Under the pieces are notes generated by a model. That model ran no database searches. It was not told where the DNA came from and saw nothing but the letters and a program-made list of their open reading frames with translations. Positions 13,277 to 64,000 of a stretch of 64,000 bases of DNA are shown in pieces. Source of the stretch: Mimachlamys varia (taxonomy: Eukaryota; Mollusca; Bivalvia; Pectinida; Pectinidae). The position numbers and the translations under genes were made by a program. Positions within the stretch are counted from its first letter, which is position 1. Each line of letters begins with the position of its first letter. Location: contig OX392541.1 of NCBI GenBank assembly GCA_947623455.1, positions 4,044,701 through 4,108,700 of the forward strand, given 5' to 3'.

Positions 13277-14763
13277 ATGGGGTACCTAGAGCGGGTATGC
13301 CTGACGCTCGTGATTAGTTTGGCTGGGTTAGGTATTCACAATGTATCCGGGACGCTTGTTTCCACAGAAAGTGGGATCATGGAAGGCACTGCTGTTACGT
13401 CACAGAGTGGTGACGTTTACCAGTTCCGAAAGATACCTTACGCCAAACCACCTGTCGGGTCCTTACGGTTTAGCAAACCCATGAAGATATCTCCCTGGAA
13501 TACCACATTAAACGCCACGGAGTACGGACCGGCGTGTATCCAACCGGTGGCACGCGGATCTAATTTCTCCGTGTCAGAAGACTGCCTTTTCCTGAACATT
13601 TTTGTTCCAAATGAGATTTCAACATCAGCCAATAAGTCGGTAATGGTTTGGATTCATGGTGGGGGTTTCACACAAGGTACAGGGATGTCATACGACGGAA
13701 CATCACTAGCACTTCACGGTGACGTCATTGTGGTGACGCTGAACTACAGACTAGGTGTGTTTGGTTTCCTCAGTACAGGAGATTCCAGCGCGAGGGGCAA
13801 CTACGGACACTGGGATCAGATAGAAGCTTTGAAATGGATTAAAACAAACATCAAATATTTTGGTGGAAATCCAGATTCAATAACGCTATTTGGTGGATCG
13901 GCCGGTGCACTCAGCGTTTCCCTCTTAGCTATGATTCCTGAAAACAAGGGACTTTTTCACCGAGTTATTACGCAAAGTGGATCTTTTGGTTCATATAAAT
14001 CTATAACATCAGATTCGGGTACAAACGCACGAGTTTTGGGGGGTCTATTACAATGTAGCAATAACCATAGTACCGAATCGCTTGTTACCTGCTTTCGTGA
14101 AAAAGATGCGGTTGCTTTGAGTAACCCCTACGAATCGTCAGATTCTCTCCCGAAAATCGGAAACACACTGTCATATGGCCCGGTCATCGACGGAGAAATG
14201 CTAACAAGTAATCCTTTCTCCCTTCTTCAAAATCAATCCTCTGAAGAATTCAAGTTTTACCGGTCGCTTGACATCATTTCCGGTTGCAACTCAGCCGAAG
14301 GATCTTTGTCTCTGGTCATCATTCCGAATCTGCCTTTTCCGGCCTTTAATATATCTGAAGGAATTCCTAGCTGGATTCTCAAGCTGTTTGCTGAAGCGGC
14401 AACCGAGGACTTATACAGCAACGACACTAGGATTTTACCATATATCTATGACAAATACATATCGACAGACATGGAAGAACAAGGACGACTTTTTTTGAAT
14501 TATTTTGGTGACGTGAACTTTTATGTACCCATGATGGAATCACTACTAGTTCATGACCGAGGCAGGAATTCTAAAACAAATACATTTCAATATTTCTTCT
14601 CAAAGTCTTCGGCAGTTGATTTTTTTAGTGGTGTTCTGCCGAAATGGTTTGTTGGAGCTGGGCATGGAGATGAGGTACCGTACATTTTTAAATCTGGGCA
14701 AGGTCTTGATACTGTTCTTTCAGCACAAATGATGTCATACTGGACCAACTTTGCAAAATATGG
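13277..14763 (+). CDS. E1: first coding exon of a multi-domain secreted type-B carboxylesterase (class A domain)
   Basis: Encodes a signal peptide plus most of an alpha/beta-hydrolase type-B carboxylesterase/cholinesterase-like domain. I start at ATG 13277 because it has a strong context (A at -3, G at +4) and begins a typical signal peptide (residues 1-25, hydrophobic core VCLTLVISLAGLGI). The frame stays open upstream to 13145 but without an ATG. Visible features are EDCLFLN at 101-107, the oxyanion-hole HGGG at 127-130, nucleophile Ser208 in GGSAG, Glu341 in SAEGS and His463 in GAGHGDE. Cys87/Cys103 and Cys260/Cys272 match the family's first two disulfides. The domain stops at NFAKYG, lacking the usual C-terminal ~50 residues. 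The exon ends GG|GTAAGT, a phase-2 donor, and the missing tail is encoded at the start of E2. Substrate unknown: hydrolysis of carboxylic esters is inferred from family. Confidence 0.88.
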
Positions 14764-15269
14764 GTAAGTAAACTATTTGTCATATTTTGGTAAATAAAAT
14801 GTATATTATTAGATAAGATATAGTCCTTTGTTTGACAGTACAACACACAACGAAAACAAGATACTTGATATAAGAGATGTACATATACAGATTAAAGGTT
14901 GTACATGCAGTTTAACAATGTCTTGTAAAACACTGGTGTCCAGAAGGACAACTTTTCTGTGTTTAAGCTAAATATTTCATTGACACAGAGAAAAGCTGAC
15001 GGACGGCTTATTTATATATATTATATGGTCTAGTAAGTAATATCGACAGTATGATCCACTATATGTACTGGATCCTAACAAACAAATGTTCGTTGGATGC
15101 GTATTACTAGTAATAGATATATGATCGTGGAAGTAATAGCAACAGTACGGACAAATATATTGTCAAATTGCCCGCACTGTCGCTATTACTTCCACGATCA
15201 TATACACTGTATGCATAAAAATATATATATGTGGACAATATTTGTTTAATAAATGTAGATGATAATATA
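14764..15269 (+). other. Unique left part of intron 1
   Basis: The intron opens with GTAAGT at 14764. This AT-rich stretch is nearly identical to 49010-49517 after E3, including a hairpin. Otherwise it has no recognised feature. The similarity shows that intron 1 and intron 3 are copies of one ancestral intron. Confidence 0.8.
15118..15204. repeat. 34-bp inverted repeat (hairpin) in intron 1
   Basis: The left arm TATATGATCGTGGAAGTAAT runs on through AGCAACAGTACGG (15118-15151). It is complementary to CCGCACTGTCGCTATTACTT followed by CCACGATCATATA (15171-15204), with only a few mismatches and a ~19-nt loop. In the sense transcript it would form a stable stem. It may be a relic palindromic element or a hairpin RNA precursor. 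A second copy lies at 49364-49450. Confidence 0.8.
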
Positions 15270-18200
15270 TAGAGCCAGTACAGAACCCCTCCCGGCCTGT
15301 GGTGTTTGTTGAGTCACAAGAGAACCCCCTCCCGGCCTGTGATGTTTGTAGAGTCACTAGAGAACCCCCTCTCGGCCTGTTGTGTTTGTATAGTCATTAG
15401 ATAACCCCCTCCCGGCCTGTGATGTTTGTAGAGCCATTAGAGAACCCCCTCCCGACCTGTGATGTTTGTAGAGACATTAGATAACCCCCTCACGGCCTGT
15501 GATGTTGGTAGAGTCACTAGAGAACCCCCTCCCGGCCTGTGATGTTTATAGAGACACTAGAGAACCCCCTCCCGGCCTGTGAAGTTTGTAGAGTCATTAG
15601 AGCACCCCGTCCCGGCCTGTGATGTTTGTAGAGCCATAAGAGAACCCCCTCCCGGCCTGTGATGTTGGTAGTGTCACTAGAGAACCCCCTCCCGGCCTGT
15701 GATGTTTGTAGAGTCACTGGAGAACCCCCTCCCGGCCTGTTAAGTTTGTAGAGTCACAAGGGAACCCCCTCCCGGCCTGTGGTGTTTGTAGAGTCATTAG
15801 AGAACCCCCTCCCAGCCTGTGATGTTTGTAGAGACATTAGAGAACCCCCTCCCGGCCTGTGATGTTTGTAGAGTCACTAGAGAACCCCCTCTCGGCCTGT
15901 TGTGTTTGTAGAGTCATTAGATAACCCCCTCCCGGCCTGTGATGTTTGTAGAGCCATTAGAGAACCCCCTCCCGACCTGTGATGTTTGTAGAGACATTAG
16001 ATAACCCCCTCACGGCCTGTGATGTTGGTAGAGTCACTAGAGAACCCCCTCCCGGCCTGTGATGTTTATAGAGACACTAGAGAACCCCCTCCCGGCCTGT
16101 GAAGTTTGTAGAGTCATTAGAGCACCCCGTCCCGGCCTGTGATGTTTGTAGAGCCATAAGAGAACCCCCTCCCGGCCTGTGATGTTGGTAGTGTCACTAG
16201 AGAACCCCCTCCCGGCCTGTGATGTTTGTAGAGTCACTGGAGAACCCCCTCCCGGCCTGTTAAGTTTGTAGAGTCACAAGGGAACCCCCTCCCGGCCTGT
16301 GGTGTTTGTAGAGTCATTAGAGAACCCCCTCCCAGCCTGTGATGTTTGTAGAGACATTAGAGAACCCCCTCCCGGCCTGTGGTGTTTGTAGAGCCTTAAG
16401 AGAACCCCTTCCCGGCCTGTGGTGTTTGTAGAGCATTAAGAGAACCCCCTTCCGGCCGGTGGTGTTTGTAGAGTCATTAGAGAACCCCCGCCCGCCCTGT
16501 GATGTTTGTAGAGTCATTAGAGAACCCCCTCCCGGCCTGTGGTGTTTGTAGAGTCATTAGAGAACCCCCTCCCGGCCTGTGATGTTAGTAGAGTCATTAG
16601 AGCACCCCGTCCCGGCCTGTGATGTTTGTAGAGCCATTAGAGAACCCCCTCCCGGCCTGTGATGTTGGTAGTGTCACTAGAGAACCCCCTCCCGGCCTGT
16701 GATGTTTGTAGAGTCACTGGAGAACCCCCTCCCGGCCTGTGGTGTTTGTTGAATCATTAGAGAACCCCTCCCGGCCTGTGGTGTTTGTAGAGTCATTGTA
16801 TAGAGAACCCCCTCCCGGCCTGTGGTGTTTGTAAATTCATTAGAAAACCCTCTCCCGGCCTGTGATGTTTGTAGAGTCATTAGAGAACCCCCTCCCGGCC
16901 TGTGGTGTTTGTAGAGTCATTAGAAAACCCCCTCCCGGCCTGTGGTGTTTGTAGAATCTTTAGAGAACCCACCCGGCCTGTGGTGTTTGTAGAGTCATTA
17001 TATAGAGAACCCCTTCCCGGCCTGTGGTGTTTGTAGAGTCATTAGAAAACCCTCTCCCGGCCTGTGATGTTTGTAGAGTCATTAGAGAACCCATTCCTGG
17101 CCTGTGATGTTGGTAGAGTCATTAGAGAACCCCCTCCCGGCATGTGATTTTTGTAGAGTCATTAGAGAACCCCCTCCCGGCCTGTGGTGTTTGTAGAGAC
17201 ATTAGAGAACCCCTCCCGGCCTGTGATGTTTGAAGAGTCATTAGAGAACCCCCTCCCGGCCTGTGGTGTTTGTAGAGTCATTAGAGAATCCCTCCCGGCA
17301 TGTGATGTTTGTAGAGTCATTAGAGAACCCCCTCCCGGCCTGTGATGTTTGAAGAGTCATTAGAGAACCCCTCCCGGCCTGTGATGTTTGAAGAGTCATT
17401 AGAGAACCCCTTCCCGGCCTGTGGTGTTTGTAGAGTCATTACAGAACCCCCTCCCGGCCTGTGATGTTTGTAGAGTCATTAGAGAACCCCTCCCGGCCTG
17501 TGATGTTTGTAGAGTCATTAGAGAACCCCCTCCCGGCCTGTGGTGTTTGTAGAGTCATTAGAGAACCCCCTCCCGGCCTGTGATGTTGGTAGAGTCATTA
17601 GAGAACCCCCTCCCGGCATGTGATGTTTGTAGAGTCATTAGAGAACCCCCTCCCGGCCTGTGGTGTTTGTAGAGACATTAGAGAACCCCCTTCCGGCCTG
17701 TGATGTTTGAAGAGTCATTAGAGAACCCATCCCGGCCTGTGATGTTTGAAGAGTCATTAGAGAACCCCTTCCCGGCCTGTGGTGTTTGTAGAGTCATTAG
17801 AGAACCCCTCCCGGCCTGTGATTTTTGTAGAGTTATTAGAGAACCCCCTCCCGGCCTGTGGTGTTTGAAGAGACATTAGAGAACCCCCTCCCGGCCTGTG
17901 ATGTTTGAAGAGTCATTAGAGAACCCCCTCCCGGCATGTGATGTTTGAAGAGTCATTAGAGAATCCCTCCCGGCATGTGATGTTTGAAGAGTCATTAGAG
18001 AACCCCCTCCCGGCCTGTGGTGCTTGTAGAGTCATTAGAGAACCCCCTCCCGGCCTGTGGTGCTTGTAGAGTCATTAGAGAATCCCTCCCGGCCTGTTGT
18101 GTTTGTAGAGACATTAGAGAATCCCTCCCGGCATGTGATGTTTGTAGAGTCATTAGAGAACCCCCTCCCGGCCTGTGATGTTTGAAGAGTCATTAGAGAA

Positions 18201-21200
18201 CCCCTCCCGGCCTGTGATGTTTGAAGAGTCATTAGAGAACCCCCTCCCGACCTGTGGTGCTTGTAGAGTCATTAGAGAACCCCCTCCCGGCCGCCTGTGG
18301 TGCTTGTAGAGTCATTAGAGAACCCCCTCCCGGCCTGTGGTGCTTGTAGAGTCATTAGAGAATCCCTCCCGGCATGTGATGTTTGAAGAGTCATTAGAGA
18401 ACCCCCTCCTGGCCTGTGGTGTTTGTAGAATCATTAGAGAACCCCTCCCGGCCTGTTGTGTTTGTAGAGACATTAGAGAATCCCTCCCGGCATGTGATGT
18501 TTGAAGAGTCATTAGAGATCCCGCTCCCGGCCTGTGGTGTTTGTAGAGTCATTAGAGAACCCCCTCCCGGCCTGTGATGTTTGTAGAGACATTAGAGAAC
18601 CCCCTCCCGGCCTGTTGTGTTTGTAGTGACATTAGAGAATCCCTCCCGGCATGTGATGTTTGTAGAGTCATTAGAGAACCCCCTCCCGGCCTGTGATGTT
18701 TGAAGAGTCATTAGAGAACCCCCTCCCGGCCTGTGATGTTGGTAGTGTCACTAGAGAACCCCCTCCCGGCCTGTGATGTTTGTAGAGTCACTGGAGAACC
18801 CCGTCCCGGCCTGTGGTGTTTGTTGAATCATTAGAGAACCCCTCCCGGCCTGTGGTGTTTGTAGAGTCATTGTATAGAGAACCCCCTCCCGGCCTGTGGT
18901 GTTTGTAAAGTCATTAGAAAACCCTCTCCCGGCCTGTGATGTTTGTAGAGTCATTAGAGAACCCCCTCCCGGCCTGTGGTGTTTGTAGAGTCATTAGAAA
19001 ACCCCCTCCCGGCCTGTGGTGTTTGTAGAATCTTTAGAGAACCCCTCCCGGCCTGTGGTGTTTGTAGAGTCATTATATAGAGAACCCCTTCCCGGCCTGT
19101 GGTGTTTGTAGAGTCATTAGAAAACCCTCTCCCGGCCTGTGATGTTTGTAGAGTCATTAGAGAACCCCTCCCGGCCTGTGATGTTTGAAGAGTCATTAGA
19201 GAACCCCCTCCCGGCCTGTGGTGTTTGTAGAGTCATTAGAGAATCCCTCCCGGCATGTGATGTTTGTAGAGTCATTAGAGAACCCCCTCCCGGCCTGTGA
19301 TGTTTGAAGAGTCATTAGAGAACCCCTCCCGGCCTGTGATGTTTGAAGAGTCATTAGAGAACCCCCTCCCGGCCTGTGGTGTTTGTAGAGTCATTAGAGA
19401 ACCCCCTCCTGGCCTGTGATGTTTGTAGAGTCATTAGAGAACCCCTCCCGGCATGTGATGTTTGTAGAGTCATTAGAGAACCCCCTCCCGGCCTGTGGTG
19501 TTTGTAGAGTCATTAGAGAACCCCCTCCCGGCCTGTGATGTTGGTAGAGTCATTAGAGAACCCCCTCCCGGCATGTGATGTTTGTAGAGTCATTAGAGAA
19601 CCCCCTCCCGGCCTGTGGTGTTTGTAGAGACATTAGAGAACCCCCTCCCGGCCTGTGATGTTTGGAGAGTCATTAGAGAACCCATCCCGGCCTGTGATGT
19701 TTGAAGAGTCATTAGAGAACCCCTTCCCGGCCTGTGGTGTTTGTAGAGTCATTAGAGAACACCTCCCGGCCTGTGATGTTTGTAGAGTTATTAGAGAACC
19801 CCCTCCCGGCCTGTGGTGTTTGTAGAGACATTAGAGAACCCCCTCCCGGCCTGTGATGTTTGAAGAGTCATTAGAGAACCCCCTCCCGGCCTGTGGTGTT
19901 TGTAGAGACATTAGAGAACCCCCTCCCGGCCTGTGATGTTTGAAGAGTCATTAGAGAACCCCCTCCCGGCATGTGATGTTTGAAGAGTCATTAGAGAATC
20001 CCTCCCGGCATGTGATGTTTGAAGAGTCATTAGAGAACCCCCTCCCGGCCTGTGGTGCTTGTAGAGTCATTAGAGAACCCCCTCCCGGCCTGTGGTGCTT
20101 GTAGAGTCATTAGAGAACCCCTCCCGGCCTGTGCTGTTTGTAGAGTCATTAGAGAACCCCCTCCCGGCCTGTGATGTTTGAAGAGTCATTAGAGAACCCC
20201 TCCCGGCCTGTGATGTTTGAAGAGTCATTAGAGAACCCCCTCCCGACCTGTGGTGCTTGTAGAGTCATTAGAGAACCCCCTCCCGGCCGCCTGTGGTGCT
20301 TGTAGAGTCATTAGAGAACCCCCTCCCGGCCTGTGGTGCTTGTAGAGTCATTAGAGAATCCCTCCCGGCATGTGATGTTTGAAGAGTCATTAGAGAACCC
20401 CCTCCCGGCCGCCTGTGGTGCTTGTAGAGTCATTAGAGAACCCCCTCCCGGCCTGTGGTGCTTGTAGAGTCATTAGAGAATCCCTCCCGGCATGTGATGT
20501 TTGAAGAGTCATTAGAGAACCCCCTCCCGGCCTGTGGTGTTTGTAGAATCATTAGAGAACCCCTCCCGGCCTGTTGTGTTTGTAGAGACATTAGAGAATC
20601 CCTCCCGGCATGTGATGTTTGAAGAGTCATTAGAGAACCCCCTCCCGGCCTGTGGTGTTTGTAGAGTCATTAGAGAACCCCCTCCCGGCCTGTGATTTTT
20701 GTAGAGACATTAGAGAACCCCCTCCCGGCCTGTTGTGTTTGTAGTGACATTAGAGAATCCCTCCCGGCATGTGATGTTTGTAGAGTCATTAGAGAACCCC
20801 CTCCCGGCCTGTGATGTTTGAAGAGTCATTAGAGAACCCCCTCCCGGCCTGTGGTGCTTGTAGAGTCATTAGAAAACCCCCTCCCGGCCTGTGGTGTTTG
20901 TAGAATCATTAGAGAACCCCTCCCGGCCTGTTGTGTTTGTAGAGTCATTATATAGAGACCCCCTTCCCGGCCTGTGGTGTTTGTAGAGTCATTAGAAAAC
21001 CCTCTCCCGGCCTGTGATGTTTGTAGAGTAATTAGAGAACCCCCTCCCGGACTGTGGTGTTTGTAGAGACATTAGAGAACCCCTTCCCGGCATGTGATGT
21101 TTGTAGAGTCATTAGAAAACCCTCTCCTGGCCTGTGATGTTTGTAGAGTCATTAGAGAACCCTCTCCCGGCCTGTGATGTTGGTAGAGTCATTATAGAAC

Positions 21201-24200
21201 CCCCTCCCGGCCTGTGGCGTTTGAAGAGTCATGAAGAGAAACTCCTCCCGGCGTGTGATGTTTGTAGAGACATTAAAGAACCCCCTCCCGGCCTGTTGTG
21301 TGTGTAGAGTCATTAAGAGAACCCCCTCCCGGCCTGTGATGTTTTTAGAGTCATTGGAGACTCCCCCCCGTCCTGTGATGTTTGTAGAGTCATTAGAGAA
21401 CCCCCTCCCGGCCTGTGATGTTTGTAGAGTCATTAGAGAATCCCTCCCGGCATGTGATGTTTGAAGAGTCATTAGAGAACCCCCTCCCGGCCTGTGGTGT
21501 TTGTAGAGTCATTAGAGAACCCCCTCCCGGCCTGTGATGTTTGAAGAGTCATTAGAGAACCCCTCCCGGCCTGTGATGTTTGAAGAGTCATTAGAGAACC
21601 CCCTCCCGGCCTGTGGTGTTTGTAGAGTCATTAGAGAACCCCCTCCTGGCCTGTGATGTTTGTAGAGTCATTAGAGAACCCCTCCCGGCCTGTGATGTTT
21701 GTAGAGACATTAGAGAACCCCCTCCCGGCCTGTGATGTTTGAAGAGTCATTAGAGAACCCCCTCCCGGCATGTGATGTTTGAAGAGTCATTAGAGAATCC
21801 CTCCCGGCATGTGATGTTTGAAGAGTCATTAGAGAACCCCCTCCCGGCCTGTGGTGCTTGTAGAGTCATTAGAGAACCCCCTCCCGGCCTGTGGTGCTTG
21901 TAGAGTCATTAGAGAATCCCTCCCGGCCTGTTGTGTTTGTAGAGACATTAGAGAATCCCTCCCGGCATGTGATGTTTGTAGAGTCATTAGAGAACCCCCT
22001 CCCGGCCTGTGATGTTTGAAGAGTCATTAGAGAACCCCTCCCGGCCTGTGATGTTTGAAGAGTCATTAGAGAACCCCCTCCCGGCCTGTGATGTTGGTAG
22101 TGTCACTAGAGAACCCCCTCCCGGCCTGTGATGTTTGTAGAGTCACTGGAGAACCCCCTCCCGGCCTGTGGTGTTTGTTGAATCATTAGAGAACCCCTCC
22201 CGGCCTGTGGTGTTTGTAGAGTCATTGTATAGAGAACCCCCTCCCGGCCTGTGGTGTTTGTAAAGTCATTAGAAAACCCTCTCCCGGCCTGTGATGTTTG
22301 TAGAGTCATTAGAGAACCCCCTCCCGGCCTGTGGTGTTTGTAGAGTCATTAGAAAACCCCCTCCCGGCCTGTGGTGTTTGTAGAATCTTTAGAGAACCCC
22401 TCCCGGCCTGTGGTGTTTGTAGAGTCATTATATAGAGAACCCCTTCCCGGCCTGTGGTGTTTGTAGAGTCATTAGAAAACCCTCTCCCGGCATGTGATGT
22501 TTGTAGAGTCATTAGAGAACCCCTCCCGGCCTGTGATGTTTGAAGAGTCATTAGAGAACCCCCTCCCGGCCTGTGATGTTTGAAGAGTCATTAGAGAACC
22601 CCCTCCCGGCCTGTGATGTTGGTAGTGTCACTAGAGAACCCCCTCCCGGCCTGTGATGTTTGTAGAGTCACTGGAGAACCCCCTCCCGGCCTGTGGTGTT
22701 TGTTGAATCATTAGAGAACCCCTCCCGGCCTGTGGTGTTTGTAGAGTCATTGTATAGAGAACCCCCTCCCGGCCTGTGGTGTTTTTAAAGTCATTAGAAA
22801 ACCCTCTCCCGGCCTGTGATGTTTGTAGAGTCATTAGAGAACCCCCTCCCGGCCTGTGGTGTTTGTAGAGTCATTAGAAAACCCCCTCCCGGCCTGTGGT
22901 GTTTGTAGAATCTTTAGAGAACCCCTCCCGGCCTGTGGTGTTTGTAGAGTCATTATATAGAGAACCCCTTCCCGGCCTGTGGTGTTTGTAGAGTCATTAG
23001 AAAACCCTCTCCCGGCCTGTGATGTTTGTAGAGTCATTAGAGAACCCCTCCCGGCCTGTGATGTTTGAAGAGTCATTAGAGAACCCCCTCCCGGCCTGTG
23101 GTGTTTGTAGAGTCATTAGAGAATCCCTCCCGGCATGTGATGTTTGTAGAGTCATTAGAGAACCCCCTCCCGGCCTGTGATGTTTGAAGAGTCATTAGAG
23201 AACCCCTCCCGGCCTGTGATGTTTGAAGAGTCATTAGAGAACCCCCTCCCGGCCTGTGGTGTTTGTAGAGTCATTAGAGAACCCCCTCCTGGCCTGTGAT
23301 GTTTGTAGAGTCATTAGAGAACCCCTCCCGGCCTGTGATGTTTGTAGAGACATTAGAGAACCCCCTCCCGGCCTGTGATGTTTGAAGAGTCATTAGAGAA
23401 CCCCCTCCCGGCATGTGATGTTTGAAGAGTCATTAGAGAATCCCTCCCGGCATGTGATGTTTGAAGAGTCATTAGAGAACCCCCTCCCGGCCTGTGGTGC
23501 TTGTAGAGTCATTAGAGAACCCCCTCCCGGCCTGTGGTGCTTGTAGAGTCATTAGAGAATCCCTCCCGGCCTGTTGTGTTTGTAGAGACATTAGAGAATC
23601 CCTCCCGGCATGTGATGTTTGTAGAGTCATTAGAGAACCCCCTCCCGGCCTGTGATGTTTGAAGAGTCATTAGAGAACCCCTCCCGGCCTGTGATGTTTG
23701 AAGAGTCATTAGAGAACCCCCTCCCGGCCTGTGATGTTGGTAGTGTCACTAGAGAACCCCCTCCCGGCCTGTGATGTTTGTAGAGTCACTATAGAAACCC
23801 CTCCCGGCCTGTGGTGTTTGTTGAATCATTAGAGAACCCCTCCCGGCCTGTGGTGTTTGTAGAGTCATTGTATAGAGAACCCCCTCCCGCCCTGTGGTGT
23901 TTGTAAAGTCATTAGAAAACCCTCTCCCGGCCTGTGATGTTTGTAGAGTCATTAGAGAACCCCCTCCCGGCCTGTGGTGTTTGTAGAGTCATTAGAAAAC
24001 CCCCTCCCGGCCTGTGGTGTTTGTAGAATCTTTAGAGAACCCCTCCCGGCCTGTGGTGTTTGTAGAGTCATTATATAGAGAACCCCTTCCCGGCCTGTGG
24101 TGTTTGTAGAGTCATTAGAAAACCCTCTCCCGGCCTGTGATGTTTGTAGAGTCATTAGAGAACCCCTCCCGGCCTGTGATGTTTGAAGAGTCATTAGAGA

Positions 24201-27200
24201 ACCCCCTCCCGGCCTGTGGTGTTTGTAGAGTCATTAGAGAATCCCTCCCGGCATGTGATGTTTGTAGAGTCATTAGAGAACCCCCTCCCGGCCTGTGATG
24301 TTTGAAGAGTCATTAGAGAACCCCTCCCGGCCTGTGATGTTTGAAGAGTCATTAGAGAACCCCCTCCCGGCCTGTGGTGTTTGTAGAGTCATTAGAGAAC
24401 CCCCTCCTGGCCTGTGATGTTTGTAGAGTCATTAGAGAACCCCTCCCGGCCTGTGATGTTTGTAGAGTCATTAGAGAACCCCCTCCCGGCCTGTGGTGTT
24501 TGTAGAGTCATTAGAGAACCCCCTCCCGGCCTGTGATGTTGGTAGAGTCATTAGAGAACCCCCTCCCGGCATGTGATGTTTGTAGAGTCATTAGAGAACC
24601 CCCTCCCGGCCTGTGGTGTTTGTAGAGACATTAGAGAACCCCCTCCTGGCCTGTGATGTTTGTAGAGTCATTAGAGAACCCCTCCCGGCCTGTGATGTTT
24701 GTAGAGTCATTAGAGAACCCCCTCCCGGCCTGTGGTGTTTGTAGAGTCATTAGAGAACCCCCTCCCGGCCTGTGGTGTTTGTAAATTCATTAGAAAACCC
24801 TCTCCCGGCCTGTGATGTTTGTAGAGTCATTAGAGAACCCCCTCCCGGCCTGTGGTGTTTGTAGAGTCATTAGAAAACCCCCTCCCGGCCTGTGGTGTTT
24901 GTAGAATCTTTAGAGAACCCACCCGGCCTGTGGTGTTTGTAGAGTCATTATATAGAGAACCCCTTCCCGGCCTGTGGTGTTTGTAGAGTCATTAGAAAAC
25001 CCTCTCCCGGCCTGTGATGTTTGTAGAGTCATTAGAGAACCCATTCCTGGCCTGTGATGTTGGTAGAGTCATTAGAGAACCCCCTCCCGGCATGTGATTT
25101 TTGTAGAGTCATTAGAGAACCCCCTCCCGGCCTGTGGTGTTTGTAGAGACATTAGAGAACCCCTCCCGGCCTGTGATGTTTGAAGAGTCATTAGAGAACC
25201 CCCTCCCGGCCTGTGGTGTTTGTAGAGTCATTAGAGAATCCCTCCCGGCATGTGATGTTTGTAGAGTCATTAGAGAACCCCCTCCCGGCCTGTGATGTTT
25301 GAAGAGTCATTAGAGAACCCCTCCCGGCCTGTGATGTTTGAAGAGTCATTAGAGAACCCCTTCCCGGCCTGTGGTGTTTGTAGAGTCATTACAGAACCCC
25401 CTCCCGGCCTGTGATGTTTGTAGAGTCATTAGAGAACCCCTCCCGGCCTGTGATGTTTGTAGAGTCATTAGAGAACCCCCTCCCGGCCTGTGGTGTTTGT
25501 AGAGTCATTAGAGAACCCCCTCCCGGCCTGTGATGTTGGTAGAGTCATTAGAGAACCCCCTCCCGGCATGTGATGTTTGTAGAGTCATTAGAGAACCCCC
25601 TCCCGGCCTGTGGTGTTTGTAGAGACATTAGAGAACCCCCTCCCGGCCTGTGATGTTTGAAGAGTCATTAGAGAACCCATCCCGGCCTGTGATGTTTGAA
25701 GAGTCATTAGAGAACCCCTTCCCGGCCTGTGGTGTTTGTAGAGTCATTAGAGAACCCCTCCCGGCCTGTGATTTTTGTAGAGTTATTAGAGAACCCCCTC
25801 CCGGCCTGTGGTGTTTGTAGAGACATTAGAGAACCCCTTCCCGGCCTGTGATGTTTGAAGAGTCATTAGAGAACCCCCTCCCGGCATGTGATGTTTGAAG
25901 AGTCATTAGAGAATCCCTCCCGGCATGTGATGTTTGAAGAGTCATTAGAGAACCCCCTCCCGGCCTGTGGTGCTTGTAGAGTCATTAGAGAACCCCCTCC
26001 CGGCCTGTGGTGCTTGTAGAGTCATTAGAGAATCCCTCCCGGCCTGTTGTGTTTGTAGAGACATTAGAGAATCCCTCCCGGCATGTGATGTTTGTAGAGT
26101 CATTAGAGAACCCCCTCCCGGCCTGTGATGTTTGAAGAGTCATTAGAGAACCCCTCCCGGCCTGTGATGTTTGAAGAGTCATTAGAGAACCCCCTCCCGA
26201 CCTGTGGTGCTTGTAGAGTCATTAGAGAACCCCCTCCCGGCCGCCTGTGGTGCTTGTAGAGTCATTAGAGAACCCCCTCCCGGCCTGTGGTGCTTGTAGA
26301 GTCATTAGAGAATCCCTCCCGGCATGTGATTTTTGAAGAGTCATTAGAGAACCCCCTCCTGGCCTGTGGTGTTTGTAGAATCATTAGAGAACCCCTCCCG
26401 GCCTGTTGTGTTTGTAGAGACATTAGAGAATCCCTCCCGGCATGTGATGTTTGAAGAGTCATTAGAGAACCCCCTCCCGGCCTGTGGTGTTTGTAGAGTC
26501 ATTAGAGAACCCCCTCCCGGCCTGTGATGTTTGTAGAGACATTAGAGAACCCCCTCCTGGCCTGTTGTGTTTGTAGTGACATTAGAGAATCCCTCCCGGC
26601 ATGTGATGTTTGTAGAGTCATTAGAGAACCCCCTCCCGGCCTGTGATGTTTGAAGAGTCATTAGAGAACCCCCTCCCGGCCTGTGATGTTGGTAGTGTCA
26701 CTAGAGAACCCCCTCCCGGCCTGTGATGTTTGTAGAGTCACTGGAGAACCCCGTCCCGGCCTGTGGTGTTTGTTGAATCATTAGAGAACCCCTCCCGGCC
26801 TGTGGTGTTTGTAGAGTCATTGTATAGAGAACCCCCTCCCGGCCTGTGGTGTTTGTAAAGTCATTAGAAAACCTTCTCCCGGCCTGTGATGTTTGTAGAG
26901 TCATTAGAGAACCCCCTCCCGGCCTGTGGTGTTTGTAGAGTCATTAGAAAACCCCCTCCCGGCCTGTGGTGTTTGTAGAATCTTTAGAGAACCCCTCCCG
27001 GCCTGTGGTGTTTGTAGAGTCATTATATAGAGAACCCCTTCCCGGCCTGTGGTGTTTGTAGAGTCATTAGAAAACCCTCTCCCGGCCTGTGATGTTTGTA
27101 GAGTCATTAGAGAACCCCTCCCGGCCTGTGATGTTTGAAGAGTCATTAGAGAACCCCCTCCCGGCCTGTGGTGTTTGTAGAGTCATTAGAGAATCCCTCC

Positions 27201-43650: not shown

Positions 43651-43692
43651 GTCAAGTCGAGTACCCCGATTGTCGAACAAACGTGCGGTCTA

Positions 43693-50959: not shown

Positions 50960-51010
50960 GTGTTCTTTGTCAAGTCGAGTACCCCGATTGTCGAACAAAC
51001 GTGCGATCTA

Positions 51011-51344: not shown

Positions 51345-53394
51345 ATACAACACACTAGAATACATCTTACACAACACCCTAGAATACATCTTACACAACA
51401 CCCTAGAATACATTTTACACAACACCCTAGAATACATCTTACACAACACCCTTGAATACATCTTACACAACACACTAGAATACATCTTACACAACACCCT
51501 AGAATACATTTTACACAACACCCTAGAATACATCTTACACAACACCCTAGAATACATTTTAAACAACACCCTAGAATACATTTTACACAACACCCTAGAA
51601 TACATTTTACACAACACACTAGAATACATCTTACACAACACCCTAGAATACCTCTTACACAACACCCTAGAATACATCTTACACAACACCCTAGAATACA
51701 TCTTACACAAAAACCTAGAATACATTTTACACAACACACTAGAATACATTTTACACAACACCCTAGAATACATTTTACACAACACACTAGAATACATCTT
51801 ACACAACAACCTAGAATACATTTTACACAACAAACTAGAATACATTTTACACAACACCCTAGAATACATTTTACACAACACACTAGAATACATCTTACAC
51901 AACACCCTAGAATACCTCTTACACAACACCCTAGAATACATCTTACACAACACCCTAGAATACATCTTACACAACACCCTAGAATACATTTTACACAACA
52001 CACTAGAATACATTTTACACAACACACTAGAATACATTTTACACAACACCCTAGAATACCTCTTACACAACACCCTAGAATACCTCTTACACAACAACCT
52101 AGAAAACATCTTACACGACACCCTAGAATACATTTTACACAACACACTAGAATACATCTTACACAACACCCTAGAATACATCTTACACAACACACTAGAA
52201 TACATTTTACACAACACACTAGAACACATCTTACACAACACACTAGAATACATCTTACACAACACCCTAGAATACATCTTAAACAACACCCTAGAATACA
52301 TTTTACACAACACTCTAGAATACATCTTACACAACACCCTTGAATACATCTTACACAACACACTAGAATACATCTTACACAACACACTAGAATACATTTT
52401 ACACAACACCCTAGAATACATCTTACACAACACCCTAGAATACATTTTACACAACACCCTAGAATACATCTTACACAACACCCTAGAATACATTTTACAC
52501 AACACCTTGGAATACATCTTACACAACACACTAGAATACATCTTACACAACAACCTAGAATACATCTTACACAACACACTAGAATACATTTTACACAACA
52601 CACTAGAATACATTTTACACAACACCCTAGAATACCTCTTACACAACACCCTAGAATACATTTTACACAACACACTAGAATACATCTTACACAACACACT
52701 AGAATACATCTTACACAACACCCTAGAATACATTTTACACAACACCCTAGAATACATCTTACACAACACCCTAGAATACATCTTGCACAACACCCTAGAA
52801 TACATTTTACACAACACCCTAGAATACATCTTACACAACACACTAGAATACCTCTTACACAACAACCTAGAATACCTCTTACACAATACCCTAGAATACA
52901 TCTTACACAATACACTAGAATACATCTTACACAACACACTAGAATACATCTTACACAACACCCTAGAATACCTCTTACACAATACCCTAGAATACATCTT
53001 ACACAACAAACTAGAATACATCTTACACAACACCCTAGAATACATCTTACACAACACCCTAGAATACATCTTACACAACACCCTAGAATACATCTTACAC
53101 AACACCCTTGAATACATCTAACACAACACCCTAGAATACATCTTACACAACACCCTAGAATACATCTTACACAACACCCTAGAATACATCTTACACAACA
53201 CCCTAGAATACATCTTACACAACACCCTAGAATACATCTTAAACAACATCCTAGAATACATCTTACACAACACCCTAGAATACATCTTACACAACACCCT
53301 AGAATACATCTTACACAACACCCTAGAATACCTCTTACACAACACCCTAGAATACATCTTAAACAACATCTTAGAATACATCTCACACAACATC
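51339..53394. repeat. 24-bp minisatellite (about 86 units) in intron 3
   Basis: Unit ACATCTTACACAACACCCTA then GAAT, repeated for 2,056 bp with no length changes that I could find. Common variants are ATCTTA/ATTTTA, CACCCTA/CACACTA and ACCTCTTA. Because 24 is eight codons, long frames stay open: plus strand 51292-53121 with period YILHNTLE, and minus strand 51050-53398 with a Cys-rich period. I regard these as by-products of the repeat. Confidence 0.95.
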
Positions 53395-53972
53395 GCATCT
53401 AAAAAGTGCTCATCAAACAAATACGTATACTTTGTGATAAATTCAGTCCGCATATTACAATGGCATATTATAGTTCAATCACTTTCAATGTTAAATGAAA
53501 ATTACTTATTCAAAATATAACAAAGACCGGTATTTACTAAGTGAATAAATCGTTAGTAGTTAATGAACAATGATAAACGTGTGAAATTATTACGCTGAAA
53601 ATAATCCAATTTTATTGACATTTTCCATTGGTAGAGGGACATTATCTTACTGCCAATATATTTGTGTAATCTATTGAATTAAGAACAAACTCAGCCAAAA
53701 GGCACATACTGTTTGTTGATAACTATATCATTCCAGGAACTTCCAGTACCAGTCTGGCCTGAATTTGACACAAACACTAGACGTTGTTATTCTCATGTTA
53801 ATCTTGAGTGGTTTCCATCATGACAAAAATAATACAAAGGAATAAAAAAAATCACTCCTCTCTCCCCCACCCCCCTCCTCGCCACCTCAAACAGGAGTTT
53901 GTTTTTGAAGGCAACATATTTCAATCTTTTTTTGAAAGAATTTTATTATTTTATTTATTAAATCTGTTTCAG
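53395..53972 (+). other. Unique right part of intron 3 with 3' splice site
   Basis: Near-identical to 44215-44790. It contains a decayed exon start and ends AATCTGTTTCAG at 53972. Confidence 0.8.
53737..53783 (+). pseudogene. Decayed esterase exon start in intron 3
   Basis: Second copy of the relic at 44555-44602. It follows TTCCAG, carries the same 13-nt deletion and the same fusion to CTTGAGTGGTTTCC. Sharing the lesion shows that it predates the intron 1/intron 3 duplication. Confidence 0.7.
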
Positions 53973-55586
53973 GAACCCAAACACGGGACTTCCAGTACCA
54001 GTCTGGCCTGAATTTGACGAAAACGCGAGACGATTTATCAACCTAGACACGGACATCACCACCGGAACTGATTTATTGGGAGACCGGATACGATTCTGGA
54101 CCGACGAAATACCTCGTATCATGTCAGAAACAGAAATACTGATTGATATTCCTATGGGACCAATTAAAGGAATTGTACAAACTGTGAAAGGTTCAACTAT
54201 CAACCAATTCCGAAAGATTCCGTTTGCTAAGGCGCCAACGGGTCCTTTGAGGTTCGCAAAACCTGTATCTATTTCGAATTGGACTGGCACACTTGATGCT
54301 ACACGTTTCGGACCTTCTTGTATTCAAACGATGGACCCAAGCATGGACACGGTTCTTCCCAACTCCAATATATCGGAAGATTGTCTCTTTTTGAATATTT
54401 ATGTACCGAACGAAGTGTCAATGACAGCCAATAAGTCGGTGATGGTTTGGATTCATGGTGGGGGTTTCACACAAGGTACAGGGATGACGTACGATGGAAC
54501 ATCACTAGCACTTCACGGTGACGTCATTGTGGCGACGCTGAACTACAGACTAGGTGTGTTTGGTTTCCTCAGTACAGGAGATTCCAGCGCGAGGGGCAAC
54601 TACGGACTCTGGGATCAGATAGAAGCTCTGAAATGGATTAAAACAAACATCAAATATTTTGGTGGAAATCCAGATTCAATAACGTTATTTGGTGAATCGG
54701 CCGGCGCATTCAGCATTTCGCACTTAGCTGTGATTCCTGGAAACAAGGGTCTTTTTCATCGAGTTATTATGCAAAGTGGATCATTGAGTTCCTTCGGGTC
54801 CATCACGAAGGATCCCCTAACGAAGTCCCGAGCTTTTGGGAGCTTTCTTGGATGTACCAACCCTGATAATACCACGTCACTGGTTTCCTGTTTACGTGCA
54901 ATCGATTCATCAGAATTACAGAGTGGAGCGGACGTAATCTATTCGGCGATTGCTTCACTAGGAGGAATATTTGAATTGTCGTTATCACCTGTGATAGACG
55001 GAGAATTGATTTCAACTCATCCACTTTCTGTATTTCAAAATCAATCCTCGGAACAGTTTGCATTCTATCAATCGCTTGACGTCATTTCCGGTTGCAATTC
55101 CGCCGAAGGATCAGTATTTCTATTTCTTTTCGAAATGTTTCCATATCTATCTTTACCTGCCGTCAATATTTCAAATGGAATTCCAAGTTGGACTTTCAAG
55201 TTGATTGCCCAAGCTGTGACCGAGGCATACTACAACAATGATACGAGAATTCTACAACATATATATAAAAAATATATTTCCACCGACGAAGAAGAACAAG
55301 GTCGACGTGTAATGAATATTTTGGGTGATATTACATTTTATATCCCCATGTGGGAATCCCTTCTCGTTCATGACCGAGGAGGAAACTCAATAGCCAACAC
55401 CTTCCAATATTTCTTTTCGAAGAAACTTCTAGTGGATGTGATTGGTGTTTTCCCAAAGTGGTTTAAAGGAGCAGGTCATGCTGCCGAGATCAATTTTCTT
55501 TTTGATAATTGGGGATATCTCCATGGTGACGACAAAGATCTGTCAATGGAAATGATGTCTTATTGGACTAACTTTGCACATTATGG
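53973..55586 (+). CDS. E4: tail of domain 3 plus esterase domain 4 (class B1)
   Basis: A 1,614-nt, 538-codon phase 2-2 exon. The ~50-codon opening tail completes domain 3 and domain 4 follows directly. Nucleophile Ser in GESAG is at 54697, Glu in SAEGS at 55105 and His in GAGHAAE at 55477. EDCLFLN and HGGG are intact. Nearly identical to E6: the visible differences include IVATLNYR (IVVTLNYR elsewhere), SSEQF for SLEQF, PNSNIS for PNSDIS, and KKLLVD for KKPLVD. Donor GG|GTAGGT. Starts the 4.48-kb tandem duplication. Confidence 0.88.
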
Positions 55587-56606: not shown

Positions 56607-58220
56607 GAACCCAAACACGGGACTTCCAGTACCAGTCTGGCCTGAATTTGACGAAAACGCGACAAGATTTATCAACCTAGACGCGGACATCACCACCGGA
56701 ACTGATTTATTGGGAGACCGGATACGATTCTGGACCGACGAAATACCTCGTATCATGTCAGAAACAGAAATACTGATTGATATTCCTATGGGACCAATTA
56801 AAGGAATTGTACAAACTGTGAAAGGTTCAACTATCAACCAATTCCGAAAGATTCCGTTTGCTAAGGCGCCAACAGGTCCGTTGAGGTTCGCAAAACCTGT
56901 ATCTATTTCGAATTGGACTGGCACACTTGATGCTACACGTTTCGGACCTTCTTGTATTCAAACAATGTACCCGAGCTGGGACACGGTTCTTCCCAACTCC
57001 GAAATATCGGAAGATTGTCTCTTTTTGAATATTTATGTACCGAACGAAGTGTCAATGACAGCCAATAAGTCGGTGATGGTTTGGATTCATGGTGGGGGTT
57101 TCACACTCGGTTCTGGGATGTCATACGACGGAACATCACTAGCACTTCACGGTGACGTCATTGTGGTGACGCTGAACTACAGACTAGGTGTGTTTGGTTT
57201 CCTCAGTACAGGAGATTCCAGCGCGAGGGGCAACTACGGACTCTGGGATCAGATAGAAGCTCTGAAATGGATTAAAACAAACATCAAATATTTTGGTGGA
57301 AATCCAGATTCAATAACGTTATTTGGTGAATCGGCCGGCGCATTCAGCATTTCGCACTTAGCTGTGATTCCTGGAAACAAGGGTCTTTTTCATCGAGTTA
57401 TTATGCAAAGTGGATCATTGAGTTCCTTCGGATCCATCACGACGGATCCTCTAACGAAGTCCCGAGCTTTTGGGAGCTTTCTTGGATGTACCAACCCTGA
57501 TAATACCACGTCACTGGTTTCCTGTTTACGTGCAATCGATTCATCAGAATTGCAAAGTGGAACGGACGTAATCTATTCGGCGATTGCTTCACTAGGAAGT
57601 ATATTTGAATTTTCGTTATCACCAGTGATAGACGGAGAATTGATTTCAAGTGATCTACTTTCTGTATTTCAAAATCAATCCTCGGAACAGTTTGCATTCT
57701 ATCAATCGCTTGACGTCATTTCCGGTTGCAATTCAGCCGAAGGATCAGTATTTCTATTTCTGTTCGAAATGTTTCCATATCTATCTTTACCTGCCGTCAA
57801 TATTTCAAATGGAATTCCAAGTTGGACATTCAAGTTGATTGCCCAAGCTGTGACCGAGGCATACTACAACAATGATACGAGAATTCTACAACATGTATAT
57901 AAAAAATATATGTCCACCGACGAAGAAGAACAAGGTCGACGTGTGATGAATCTTTTGGGTGATATTACATTTTATATCCCCATGTGGGAATCCCTTCTCG
58001 TTCATGACCGAGGAGGAAACTCAATAGCCAGCACCTTCCAATATTTCTTCGATCAACCAGTAGTCGATCCTATGAATGGCATTCCCCCAAAGTGGTTCAA
58101 AGGAGCAGGCCATTTTGCCGAGGTCAATTTTCTTTTTGATAATTGGGTATATCTTCAAGGTGACGACAAAGAACTGTCAATGGAAATGATGTCTTATTGG
58201 ACTAACTTTGCACATTATGG
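56607..58220 (+). CDS. E5: tail of domain 4 plus esterase domain 5 (class B2)
   Basis: A 1,614-nt phase 2-2 exon with the shared opening tail, then a B2 domain. B2 differs from B1 at TMYPSWDTVLPNSEIS, TLGSGMSYD just after the oxyanion HGGG, and FDQPVVDPMNGIPPKWF before the catalytic His. Ser in GESAG (57331), Glu in SAEGS (57739) and His in GAGHFAE (58111) are present. The GSGMSYD stretch shares bases with E1 (GGGATGTCATACGACGG) rather than B1, suggesting a short conversion tract. Donor GG|GTAGGT followed by a 229-nt intron. An oxyanion-adjacent change in substrate pocket is possible (inference). Confidence 0.88.
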
Positions 58221-58449: not shown

Positions 58450-60063
58450 GAACCCAAACACGGGACTTCCAGTACCAGTCTGGCCTGAATTTGACGAAAA
58501 CGCGAGACGATTTATCAACCTAGACACGGACATCACCACCGGAACTGATTTATTGGGAGACCGGATACGATTCTGGACCGACGAAATACCTCGTATCATG
58601 TCAGAAACAGAAATACTGATTGATATTCCAATGGGACCAATTAAAGGAATTGTACAAACTGTGAAAGGTTCAACTATCAACCAATTCCGAAAGATTCCGT
58701 TTGCTAAGGCGCCAACAGGTCCGTTGAGGTTCGCAAAACCTGTATCTATTTCGAATTGGACTGGCACACTTGATGCTACACGTTTCGGACCTTCGTGTAT
58801 TCAAACAATGGACCCAAGCATGGACACGGTTCTTCCCAACTCCGATATATCGGAAGATTGTCTCTTTTTGAATATTTATGTACCGAACGAAGTGTCAATG
58901 ACAGCCAATAAGTCGGTGATGGTTTGGATTCATGGTGGGGGTTTCACACAAGGTACAGGGATGACGTACGACGGAACATCACTAGCACTTCACGGTGACG
59001 TCATTGTGGTGACGCTGAACTACAGACTAGGTGTGTTTGGTTTCCTCAGTACAGGAGATTCCAGCGCGAGGGGCAACTACGGACTCTGGGATCAGATAGA
59101 AGCTCTGAAATGGATTAAAACAAACATCAAATATTTTGGTGGAAATCCAGATTCAATAACGTTATTTGGTGAATCGGCCGGCGCATTCAGCATTTCGCAC
59201 TTAGCTGTGATTCCTGGAAACAAGGGTCTTTTTCATCGAGTTATTATGCAAAGTGGATCATTGAGTTCCTTCGGGTCCATCACGAAGGATCCCCTAACGA
59301 AGTCCCGAGCTTTTGGGAGCTTTCTTGGATGTACCAACCCTGATAATACCACGTCACTGGTTTCCTGTTTACGTGCAATCGATTCATCAGAATTACAGAG
59401 TGGAGCGGACGTAATCTATTCGGCGATTGCTTCACTAGGAGGAATATTTGAATTGTCGTTATCACCTGTGATAGACGGAGAATTGATTTCAACTCATCCA
59501 CTTTCTGTATTTCAAAATCAATCCTTGGAACAGTTTGCATTCTATCAATCGCTTGACGTCATTTCCGGTTGCAATTCCGCCGAAGGATCAGTATTTCTAT
59601 TTCTTTTCGAAATGTTTCCATATCTATCTTTACCTGCCGTCAATATTTCAAATGGAATTCCAAGTTGGACTTTCAAGTTGATTGCCCAAGCTGTGACCGA
59701 GGCATACTACAACAATGATACGAGAATTCTACAACATATATATAAAAAATATATTTCCACCGACGAAGAAGAACAAGGTCGACGTGTAATGAATATTTTG
59801 GGTGATATTACATTTTATATCCCCATGTGGGAATCCCTTCTCGTTCATGACCGAGGAGGAAACTCAATAGCCAACACCTTCCAATATTTCTTTTCGAAGA
59901 AACCTCTAGTGGATGTGATTGGTGTTTTCCCAAAGTGGTTTAAAGGAGCAGGTCATGCTGCCGAGATCAATTTTCTTTTTGATAATTGGGGATATCTCCA
60001 TGGTGACGACAAAGATCTGTCAATGGAAATGATGTCTTATTGGACTAACTTTGCACATTATGG
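58450..60063 (+). CDS. E6: tail of domain 5 plus esterase domain 6 (class B1)
   Basis: A 1,614-nt phase 2-2 exon. The true coding start is the splice junction at 58450. An ATG at 58412 lies in the intron in the same frame and should not be taken as a gene start. The opening tail completes domain 5. Domain 6 has Ser in GESAG (59174), Glu in SAEGS (59582) and His in GAGHAAE (59954). It is the duplicate of E4, 4,477 bp downstream, with only a few amino-acid differences. Donor GG|GTAGGT. Confidence 0.88.
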
Positions 60064-61082: not shown

Positions 61083-62696
61083 GAACCCAAACACGGGACT
61101 TCCAGTACCAGTCTGGCCTGAATTTGACGAAAACGCGACAAGATTTATCAACCTAGACGCGGACATCACCACCGGAACTGATTTATTGGGAGACCGGATA
61201 CGATTCTGGACCGACGAAATACCTCGTATCATGTCAGAAACAGAAATACTGATTGATATTCCTATGGGACCAATTAAAGGAATTGTACAAACTGTGAAAG
61301 GTTCAACTATCAACCAATTCCGAAAGATTCCGTTTGCTAAGGCGCCAACAGGTCCGTTGAGGTTCGCAAAACCTGTATCTATTTCGAATTGGACTGGCAC
61401 ACTTGATGCTACACGTTTCGGACCTTCTTGTATTCAAACAATGTACCCGAGCTGGGACACGGTTCTTCCCAACTCCGAAATATCGGAAGATTGTCTCTTT
61501 TTGAATATTTATGTACCGAACGAAGTGTCAATGACAGCCAATAAGTCGGTGATGGTTTGGATTCATGGTGGGGGTTTCACACTCGGTTCTGGGATGTCAT
61601 ACGACGGAACATCACTAGCACTTCACGGTGACGTCATTGTGGTGACGCTGAACTACAGACTAGGTGTGTTTGGTTTCCTCAGTACAGGAGATTCCAGCGC
61701 GAGGGGCAACTACGGACTCTGGGATCAGATAGAAGCTCTGAAATGGATTAAAACAAACATCAAATATTTTGGTGGAAATCCAGATTCAATAACGTTATTT
61801 GGTGAATCGGCCGGCGCATTCAGCATTTCGCACTTAGCTGTGATTCCTGGAAACAAGGGTCTTTTTCATCGAGTTATTATGCAAAGTGGATCATTGAGTT
61901 CCTTCGGATCCATCACGAAGGATCCTCTAACGAAGTCCCGAGCTTTTGGGAGCTTTCTTGGATGTACCAACCCTGATAATACCACGTCACTGGTTTCCTG
62001 TTTACGTGCAATCGATTCATCAGAATTGCAAAGTGGAACGGACGTAATCTATTCGGCGATTGCTTCACTAGGAAGTATATTTGAATTTTCGTTATCACCA
62101 GTGATAGACGGAGAATTGATTTCAAGTGATCTACTTTCTGTATTTCAAAATCAATCCTCGGAACAGCTTGCATTCTATCAATCGCTTGACGTCATTTCCG
62201 GTTGCAATTCAGCCGAAGGATCAGTATTTCTATTTCTGTTCGAAATGTTTCCATATCTATCTTTACCTGCCGTCAATATTTCGGATGGAATTCCAAGTTG
62301 GACATTCAAGTTGATTGCCCAAGCTGTGACCGAGGCATACTACAACAATGATACGAGAATTCTACAACATGTATATAAAAAATATATGTCCACCGACGAA
62401 GAAGAACAAGGTCGACGTGTGATGAATCTTTTGGGTGATATTACATTTTATATCCCCATGTGGGAATCCCTTCTCGTTCATGACCGAGGAGGAAACTCAA
62501 TAGCCAGCACCTTCCAATATTTCTTCGATCAACCAGTAGTCGATCCTATGAATGGCATTCCCCCAAAGTGGTTCAAAGGAGCAGGCCATTTTGCCGAGGT
62601 CAATTTTCTTTTTGATAATTGGGTATATCTTCAAGGTGACGACAAAGAACTGTCAATGGAAATGATGTCTTATTGGACTAACTTTGCACATTATGG
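61083..62696 (+). CDS. E7: tail of domain 6 plus esterase domain 7 (class B2)
   Basis: A 1,614-nt phase 2-2 exon and duplicate of E5. I see three amino-acid differences from E5: ITKDPL for ITTDPL, SEQLAF for SEQFAF, and NISDGIP for NISNGIP. Ser in GESAG is at 61807, Glu in SAEGS at 62215 and His in GAGHFAE at 62587. Donor GG|GTAGGT followed by another 229-nt intron. Confidence 0.88.
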
Positions 62697-62925
62697 GTAG
62701 GTTGTAATTATTATCATTTTATTCGAAGAAAAACAGGTCACTCTCGATTAAGATAAATGTAGATAAGAACTTTTTGTTGCTAGAAATTAACATTATATAA
62801 TGTAATTATTTTCTGATAATAGAGTTGTCTTCAAAAATGACAGATTTTAAATAATCTTAATATTTTGATAACTTTAAGTATTCTTTCGTGGCATTGAATT
62901 CGTCGTTTCATTTAATCTGTTTCAG
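62697..62925 (+). other. Intron 7 (229 nt)
   Basis: Copy of intron 5, ending AATCTGTTTCAG at 62925. Nothing else is visible. Confidence 0.85.
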
Positions 62926-64000
62926 GAACCCAAACACGGGACTTCCAGTACCAGTCTGGCCTGAATTTGACGAAAACGCGAGACGATTTATCAACCTAGA
63001 CACGGACATCACCACCGGAACTGATTTATTGGGAGACCGGATACGATTCTGGACCGACGAAATACCTCGTATCATGTCAGAAACAGAAATACTGATTGAT
63101 ATTCCAATGGGACCAATTAAAGGAATTGTACAAACTGTGAAAGGTTCAACTATCAACCAATTCCGAAAGATTCCGTTTGCTAAGGCGCCAACAGGTCCGT
63201 TGAGGTTCGCAAAACCTGTATCTATTTCGAATTGGACTGGCACACTTGATGCTACACGTTTCGGACCTTCGTGTATTCAAACAATGGACCCAAGCATGGA
63301 CACGGTTCTTCCCAACTCCGATATATCGGAAGATTGTCTCTTTTTGAATATTTATGTACCGAACGAAGTGTCAATGACAGCCAATAAGTCGGTGATGGTT
63401 TGGATTCATGGTGGGGGTTTCACACAAGGTACAGGGATGACGTACGACGGAACATCACTAGCACTTCACGGTGACGTCATTGTGGTGACGCTGAACTACA
63501 GACTAGGTGTGTTTGGTTTCCTCAGTACAGGAGATTCCAGCGCGAGGGGCAACTACGGACTCTGGGATCAGATAGAAGCTCTGAAATGGATTAAAACAAA
63601 CATCAAATATTTTGGTGGAAATCCAGATTCAATAACGTTATTTGGTGAATCGGCCGGCGCATTCAGCATTTCGCACTTAGCTGTGATTCCTGGAAACAAG
63701 GGTCTTTTTCATCGAGTTATTATGCAAAGTGGATCATTGAGTTCCTTCGGGTCCATCACGAAGGATCCCCTAACGAAGTCCCGAGCTTTTGGGAGCTTTC
63801 TTGGATGTACCAACCCTGATAATACCACGTCACTGGTTTCCTGTTTACGTGCAATCGATTCATCAGAATTACAGAGTGGAGCGGACGTAATCTATTCGGC
63901 GATTGCTTCACTAGGAGGAATATTTGAATTGTCGTTATCACCTGTGATAGACGGAGAATTGATTTCAACTCATCCACTTTCTGTATTTCAAAATCAATCC
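62926..64000 (+). CDS. E8: tail of domain 7 plus esterase domain 8 (class B1), cut by the window edge
   Basis: The first 1,075 nt of another B1 exon. It has the ~50-codon opening tail, EDCLFLN, oxyanion HGGG and nucleophile Ser in GESAG (63650). It stops at FQNQS before the Glu and His. It is almost identical to E6 (4,476 bp upstream), so the tandem duplication continues into a third unit beyond the window. No terminal exon or stop of the gene is seen in the window. Confidence 0.86.

Follow-up and report, generated by a model that had tools for sequence, protein, structure and literature searches.

An eleven-exon gene of the scallop Mimachlamys varia probably encodes a surface-anchored string of ten carboxylesterase domains

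Members of the type-B carboxylesterase/cholinesterase family (bile-salt-activated lipase, CES, AChE/BChE and neuroligin) share a common profile, a catalytic triad and a GGG motif, and they normally have one catalytic domain per chain; the scallop gene described here has the same profile, triad and GGG but is predicted to encode ten such domains. To our knowledge, intact enzymes seldom seem to be linked covalently into long strings, and most known polymeric repeats consist of binding or carrier domains. Polymeric globins of molluscs and Artemia, for which we know of no homology to carboxylesterases, resemble the scallop gene in that a one-domain protein became a long covalent string by tandem duplication, but they are oxygen carriers and not enzymes. 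A nine-domain globin of Artemia and multi-domain globins of molluscs are described in passages of PMC4503718.

Database models of fish ces2b (Danio rerio, 1,611 aa with three domains; Acanthochromis, 2,215 aa with four) are similar to the scallop gene in having tandem carboxylesterase domains separated by short linkers. Unlike the scallop gene product, they carry a C-terminal HSEL, which we take to resemble an ER-retention signal, in place of a membrane anchor, and the zebrafish units form a separate clade. Capture with an active-site probe in zebrafish larvae enriched a 104.95-kDa fragment model of ces2b (passages of PMC9786740), a result that fits active tandem domains but is no proof of an intact chain, and tandem copies of fish ces2b have been reported (PMC10932694, whose available passages are silent on fused domains). 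An earlier note on the M. varia DNA had called a secreted string of so many intact carboxylesterase domains, as far as its author knew, an undescribed architecture. Our search of literature on tandem and multidomain carboxylesterases, which included the name of a Pecten locus (below) and covered few subscription journals, found no description of such a string, but automated database models already hold it, and the claim therefore stands for the literature searched and not for the databases.

We analyzed a window (the whole stretch of 64,000 nucleotides) corresponding to C15:4044701-4108700 of the M. varia assembly (chromosome 15), along with sequence from its right flank. Taken as a whole, the locus is probably best explained as a single 11-exon gene that encodes a ten-domain polymeric type-B carboxylesterase, that originated through exon fusion, and whose product is anchored at the cell surface. 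The predicted exons are listed here, with those beyond the right edge numbered on the scale of the window.

13277..14763, + strand: exon E1, signal peptide and core of domain 1, with GGSAG, CNSAEG and GAGHGDE; donor GTAAGT, phase 2
44791..46404, + strand: exon E2, tail of domain 1 and core of domain 2, phase 2-2
47420..49009, + strand: exon E3, tail of domain 2 and core of domain 3; a chimera with an internal-type 5' half and an E1-type 3' half
53973..55586, + strand: exon E4, tail of domain 3 and core of domain 4, phase 2-2
56607..58220, + strand: exon E5, tail of domain 4 and core of domain 5, phase 2-2
58450..60063, + strand: exon E6, tail of domain 5 and core of domain 6, phase 2-2
61083..62696, + strand: exon E7, tail of domain 6 and core of domain 7, phase 2-2
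62926..64000 in the window, + strand: exon E8, cut by the window edge; its true end is 539 bases further right
65559-67172, + strand, outside the window (right-flank sequence): exon E9
67404-69023, + strand, outside the window (right-flank sequence): exon E10
70273-70549, + strand, outside the window (right-flank sequence): terminal exon

The eight exon positions proposed in the earlier note were all borne out by splice sites, phases and an open frame in the window, and the splice junctions it had named are canonical at seven of seven donors (GTAAGT or GTAGGT) and seven of seven acceptors (TTTCAG followed by G). Each intron between these eight exons is GT-AG and in phase 2, and the complete internal exons E2-E7 are 1590 or 1614 bp long, each divisible by 3. 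With a phase-2 end to E1 and internal exon lengths that preserve the frame, the spliced product of E1-E8 (12,222 bp, 4,074 aa, against the ~12.2 kb and ~4,070 residues estimated earlier) contains no stop codon. The tail that is missing from E1 is present at the 5' end of each of E2-E8, as the note had seen, and E1 holds the sole strong signal-peptide match among those listed in tblastn searches of the window with three signal-peptide queries. The earlier count of at least eight domains, open at the right edge, can now be extended, since the array continues in the flank sequence to E10 and a terminal exon in which a tail and a hydrophilic spacer precede a hydrophobic end; two stops and AATAAA motifs follow. 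The whole predicted gene has 11 exons and encodes 5,423 residues (598 kDa), with ten domains of 530-545 residues each. All nine internal exons are phase 2-2, the exon symmetry expected of a polymeric multi-domain protein that grew by symmetric exon duplication, and their acceptors and donors are near-identical.

The Pfam profile COesterase (PF00135) matched the translations of all eight window exons with scores of 364.8-430 bits (E <= 1.2e-108, cut-off 27), and a profile search of the genome recovered all ten cores, E1-E10. Catalytic Ser, Glu and His, which the earlier note had reported for E1-E7, are kept by motif in ten of ten domains, as is the oxyanion GGG (WIHGGG). The nucleophile motif is GGSAG in domains 1 and 3 and GESAG in the other eight, and five Cys residues occupy conserved places in each of the ten domains, with a pairing that is presumably that of the type-B carboxylesterase family. 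By profile and catalytic motifs, the ten domains are predicted type-B carboxylesterases. The nearest proteins of similar length, among the best 120 of 6,500 matches, are scallop carboxylesterases from Mizuhopecten and Ylistrum (62-64% identity), and the best solved relative is bile-salt-activated lipase (1aql, 255.9 bits). Protein identity among the internal exons, E3 aside, ranges from 91.8 to 99.8%. All 45 exon pairs have a dN/dS below 1, and in every pair but one it does not exceed 0.46 (E5-E7 is the outlier at 0.88, with a dS of 0.0027); because the frames are intact and dN/dS is low, the exon copies look selected, with the qualification that the pairs share history and conversion. Many further carboxylesterase cores are clustered at C16:28.87-29.13 Mb; they lie on both strands, have separate tail exons and apparently represent ordinary single-domain genes.

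The last 19 residues of the predicted protein have a mean hydropathy of 2.38, the maximum of the chain (the value for the signal peptide is 1.63). The earlier note had described the product as secreted; the C-terminus looks membrane-attached from its hydropathy, and the protein is better read as surface-tethered. GPI-anchored acetylcholinesterases exist, and, judged by hydropathy alone, the C-terminal end is probably a GPI-anchor signal, with a transmembrane segment as the alternative.

Other scallop genera contain related predicted proteins. Pecten maximus LOC117341889 is an automated model of 5,724 aa with 11 GxSxG motifs, the last eight units of which form a chain with M. varia-type junctions and a similar hydrophobic C-terminal end. 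Its first units are of the first-exon type and are joined through internal signal peptides, and for that reason we consider the model unreliable in parts, these joins probably being modelling errors. A Mizuhopecten fragment of 1,068 aa, from a 5.5-kb contig (81% identity), spans the same junction between tail and next core. An AlphaFold model of this fragment (28 rows) had a mean pLDDT of 86.9 and a pTM of 0.76. In the model, the tail of the first domain (~535-585) has block pLDDT values of 86-92 and ends in a predicted helix (570-584), two residues after which the first strand of the next domain begins (587); the tail at the start of the fragment, the core of which is missing, has a pLDDT mostly below 50. 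The predicted fold is close to those of neuroligin 4 and mouse Ces2b, and the 50 PDB matches listed by Foldseek are, by title, carboxylesterases, cholinesterases, bile-salt-activated lipase and neuroligins, alone or in complexes.

The same exons could in principle belong to a series of independent one-domain genes, each with a first and a last exon that escaped detection, and other carboxylesterase cores of the M. varia genome are indeed clustered with separate tail exons. The locus, however, has one start, ten cores and one end, with no domain that has a start exon and an end exon of its own, and tblastn searches of the window with signal-peptide and tail queries found, among the matches listed, neither a second strong first exon nor a second complete stop-bearing last exon. 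A search of the whole genome (975,302,275 bases) with the tail and linker gave at least 56 matches (core and tail counts for the genome are lower bounds). Among those listed, nine fall within open frames of 534-583 aa, every one of them part of this array, where a single unbroken exon carries both a tail and the following core; the other 47 are in frames of at most 165 aa. Among the 47 is one close stop-bearing copy (88% identity, ~1.2 kb 3' of E10), and the next-best short-frame match by E-value, among those listed, is on another chromosome and only 42% identical. Because the fusion of a tail with the next domain occurs nine times, all of them here, along with a single close stop-bearing copy, we regard separate one-domain genes as very unlikely. 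It is similarly improbable that the array is an assembly artefact in which a repeat was collapsed or falsely multiplied, though the exact copy number is less certain. The 4,476-bp unit starting at E5 is repeated from E7 with only 7 differences, as a falsely multiplied repeat might be, but other internal-exon pairs differ by up to ~20% in DNA, and the assembly was built from 44-fold HiFi reads with a QV of 64.4 and a contig N50 of 19.4 Mb (passages of PMC11252643). Moreover, an artefact is unlikely because fused exons occur in database proteins of two other scallop genera, the Pecten model having a corresponding chain and the Mizuhopecten fragment the same junction. The genomic evidence, the Pecten chain and the Mizuhopecten junction support one transcription unit with physically fused internal exons, in keeping with the single polypeptide predicted in the earlier note.

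A more serious rival, given that skipping any internal exon leaves the frame intact, is that the array is an alternative splicing cassette that yields mainly one- or few-domain proteins, as interchangeable enzyme variants, instead of a string. E1 can join any later acceptor, and a single-domain Mizuhopecten model (P0001) joins the first exon straight to the terminal exon, but the contig that carries the Mizuhopecten fragment is 5.5 kb long, and the one-domain model may therefore be a product of assembly breakage. Two truncated copies of the tail exon were also found by tblastn.

44555..44663, + strand: relic tail exon 1, upstream of E2; truncated and frameshifted
53737..53845, + strand: relic tail exon 2, upstream of E4; second copy of the relic

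Each relic has an AG acceptor and, in the splice frame, reads 35 residues that include a hydrophobic stretch before a stop; as a consequence, it is possible that they serve as alternative ends after E1 and E3. The one-domain Mizuhopecten model and the Ylistrum and Argopecten models (P0002, P0003 and P0007), which end at an exon end, allow for possible short products. Against splicing as the main use of the array, both the Pecten model and the Mizuhopecten fragment run from one internal exon into the next, and in mutually exclusive use the single terminal tail would complete every core, leaving the fused tails useless. We therefore consider a pure cassette unlikely, with exon-skipped isoforms possible alongside the predicted ten-domain form.

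For the ten-domain polymeric protein, we propose the following origin. The ancestor would have been an ordinary scallop carboxylesterase gene with a long first exon (signal peptide and core), a phase-2 intron and a short last exon (tail). Elsewhere in the M. varia genome, four of five inspected ordinary core/tail pairs share the phase-2 intron between separate exons (in the fifth, the donor falls outside the stretch inspected), and because ordinary pairs have this intron and a separate last exon, we regard the fused exon as a last exon joined to the next first exon. A deletion between two tandem copies may then have joined a last exon directly to the first exon of the following copy, eliminating the anchor and stop of the former and the signal peptide of the latter. 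The fused exon is in phase 2 at both ends, and its duplication, loss or skipping therefore keeps the frame; unequal crossing-over and gene conversion could then have multiplied it. In the resulting product, the signal peptide would direct the chain into the secretory pathway, each tail would complete the preceding core with two or three residues between domains, and the final exon would tether the string to the outer cell surface, probably via a GPI anchor. Judging from the family, the tethered string may act as a multivalent general esterase in digestion, detoxification or ester scavenging.

Phylogenetic analyses are consistent with an old fusion. In a tree of 5' halves, the internal exons of three scallop genera form one clade (81/90) apart from first-exon types (97/95), and copies group by species inside the internal clade, with the internal 5' halves of Pecten LOC117341889 forming their own group, distinct from those of M. 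varia. These data offer moderate support (81/90) for one fusion in scallops followed by expansion or homogenization in each species. The internal exons do not keep this grouping in the tree of 3' halves, where Mizuhopecten P0121a falls with M. varia internal exons (99/98), the other Mizuhopecten unit falls with first-exon types, and two Pecten first-exon units fall with a Pecten internal one (100/99). This untidiness fits gene conversion between first and internal exons.

Similar chains are present among database models of other bivalves, including Saccostrea cucullata (3,280 aa) and Ostrea edulis (3,192 aa), with six domains each, and Mytilus galloprovincialis (1,688 aa), with three. Like the scallop protein, the oyster and mussel chains have near-full domains, linkers that are not strongly hydrophobic and hydrophobic C-termini, but they are placed in other clades in a 69-row tree. 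A common origin with the scallop chains was disfavoured, although only moderately (p-AU 0.025 for oysters and 0.018 for mussel), in a test of 35 hand-picked rows that contained long branches and in which the groups were named after the 69-row tree had been seen. The separate grouping of scallop, oyster, mussel and fish chains in the trees suggests repeated origin, and chains of this kind may well have evolved on more than one occasion. We examined 151 database proteins of at least 859 aa, a partial set made up of the best 120 of 6,500 matches, the best 120 of 389 and all 29 matches of a third search (the 6,500- and 389-match searches scored only candidates sharing most words), and 102 of them hold two or more near-full domains. 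In 47 of these 102 proteins, 14 of which have three or more near-full domains, no linker reaches a 12-residue hydropathy of 1.4. In the other 55, at least one linker does, and these may be joined gene models because such a linker could conceal a signal peptide. Database models of multi-domain carboxylesterases should thus be used with caution, as they look like a mix of real fused chains and false joins.

If our reading of the M. varia gene is correct, ten active sites are carried by one predicted chain of 598 kDa. The sequence suggests a route by which enzyme strings can grow, from fusion of a last exon with a first exon, to a cassette with equal phases, to changes in copy number that stay in frame. 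A broader and more speculative proposal, which we think somewhat less probable than its negation, is that bivalves have repeatedly and independently built frame-proof esterase arrays as surface polyenzymes, with valency tuned by unequal crossing-over and exon skipping, and that the M. varia array is the longest intact catalytic string known. The case also provides a natural test for the idea that selection in filter feeders favours esterases that are both multivalent and tethered to the membrane.

Repeats in and around the gene bear on how the array grew. No Rfam matches were present in the window, and its longest introns are rich in minisatellites.

14764..44790, + strand: intron 1, 30,027 bp, mostly minisatellite
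15270-43641: 40-bp minisatellite in intron 1, ~710 copies, 28 kb, 89% matches; followed by 42-bp and 24-bp arrays
49010..53972, + strand: intron 3, the start of which matches intron 1; same 40-, 42- and 24-bp arrays in other copy numbers

The 40-bp unit is present in ~36 copies in intron 3 (49530-50959), and the 24-bp array has ~86 copies there versus ~10 in intron 1. In 60-codon windows, the first half of E3 matches E2 (98-99% of bases) and the second half matches E1 (97-100%), and ~1,700 bases that begin inside E1 and run on into the first intron have a 97.3% match in E3 and intron 3. The block 44211-48229 matches 53393-57416 at 97.8%. Taken as a whole, E1 has a dS of ~1.2 relative to internal exons other than E3, and its 410-bp stretch at 13574-13983 is ~91% or more identical to the internal exons of the window. 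This stretch is likely a tract of gene conversion and the site of the crossover from which E3 resulted. Unequal exchange within a shared stretch would explain the E3 chimera and the repeated blocks. Because the second domain of Mizuhopecten P0121 is an E3-like chimera, with an internal-type start and a first-exon-type second half, the exchange that gives rise to E3-type exons appears to be old or recurrent. Two further minisatellites lie upstream of the gene, one at 1-5362 with a 58-bp unit (~92 copies) and one at 9027-12627 with a 40-bp unit (~90 copies).
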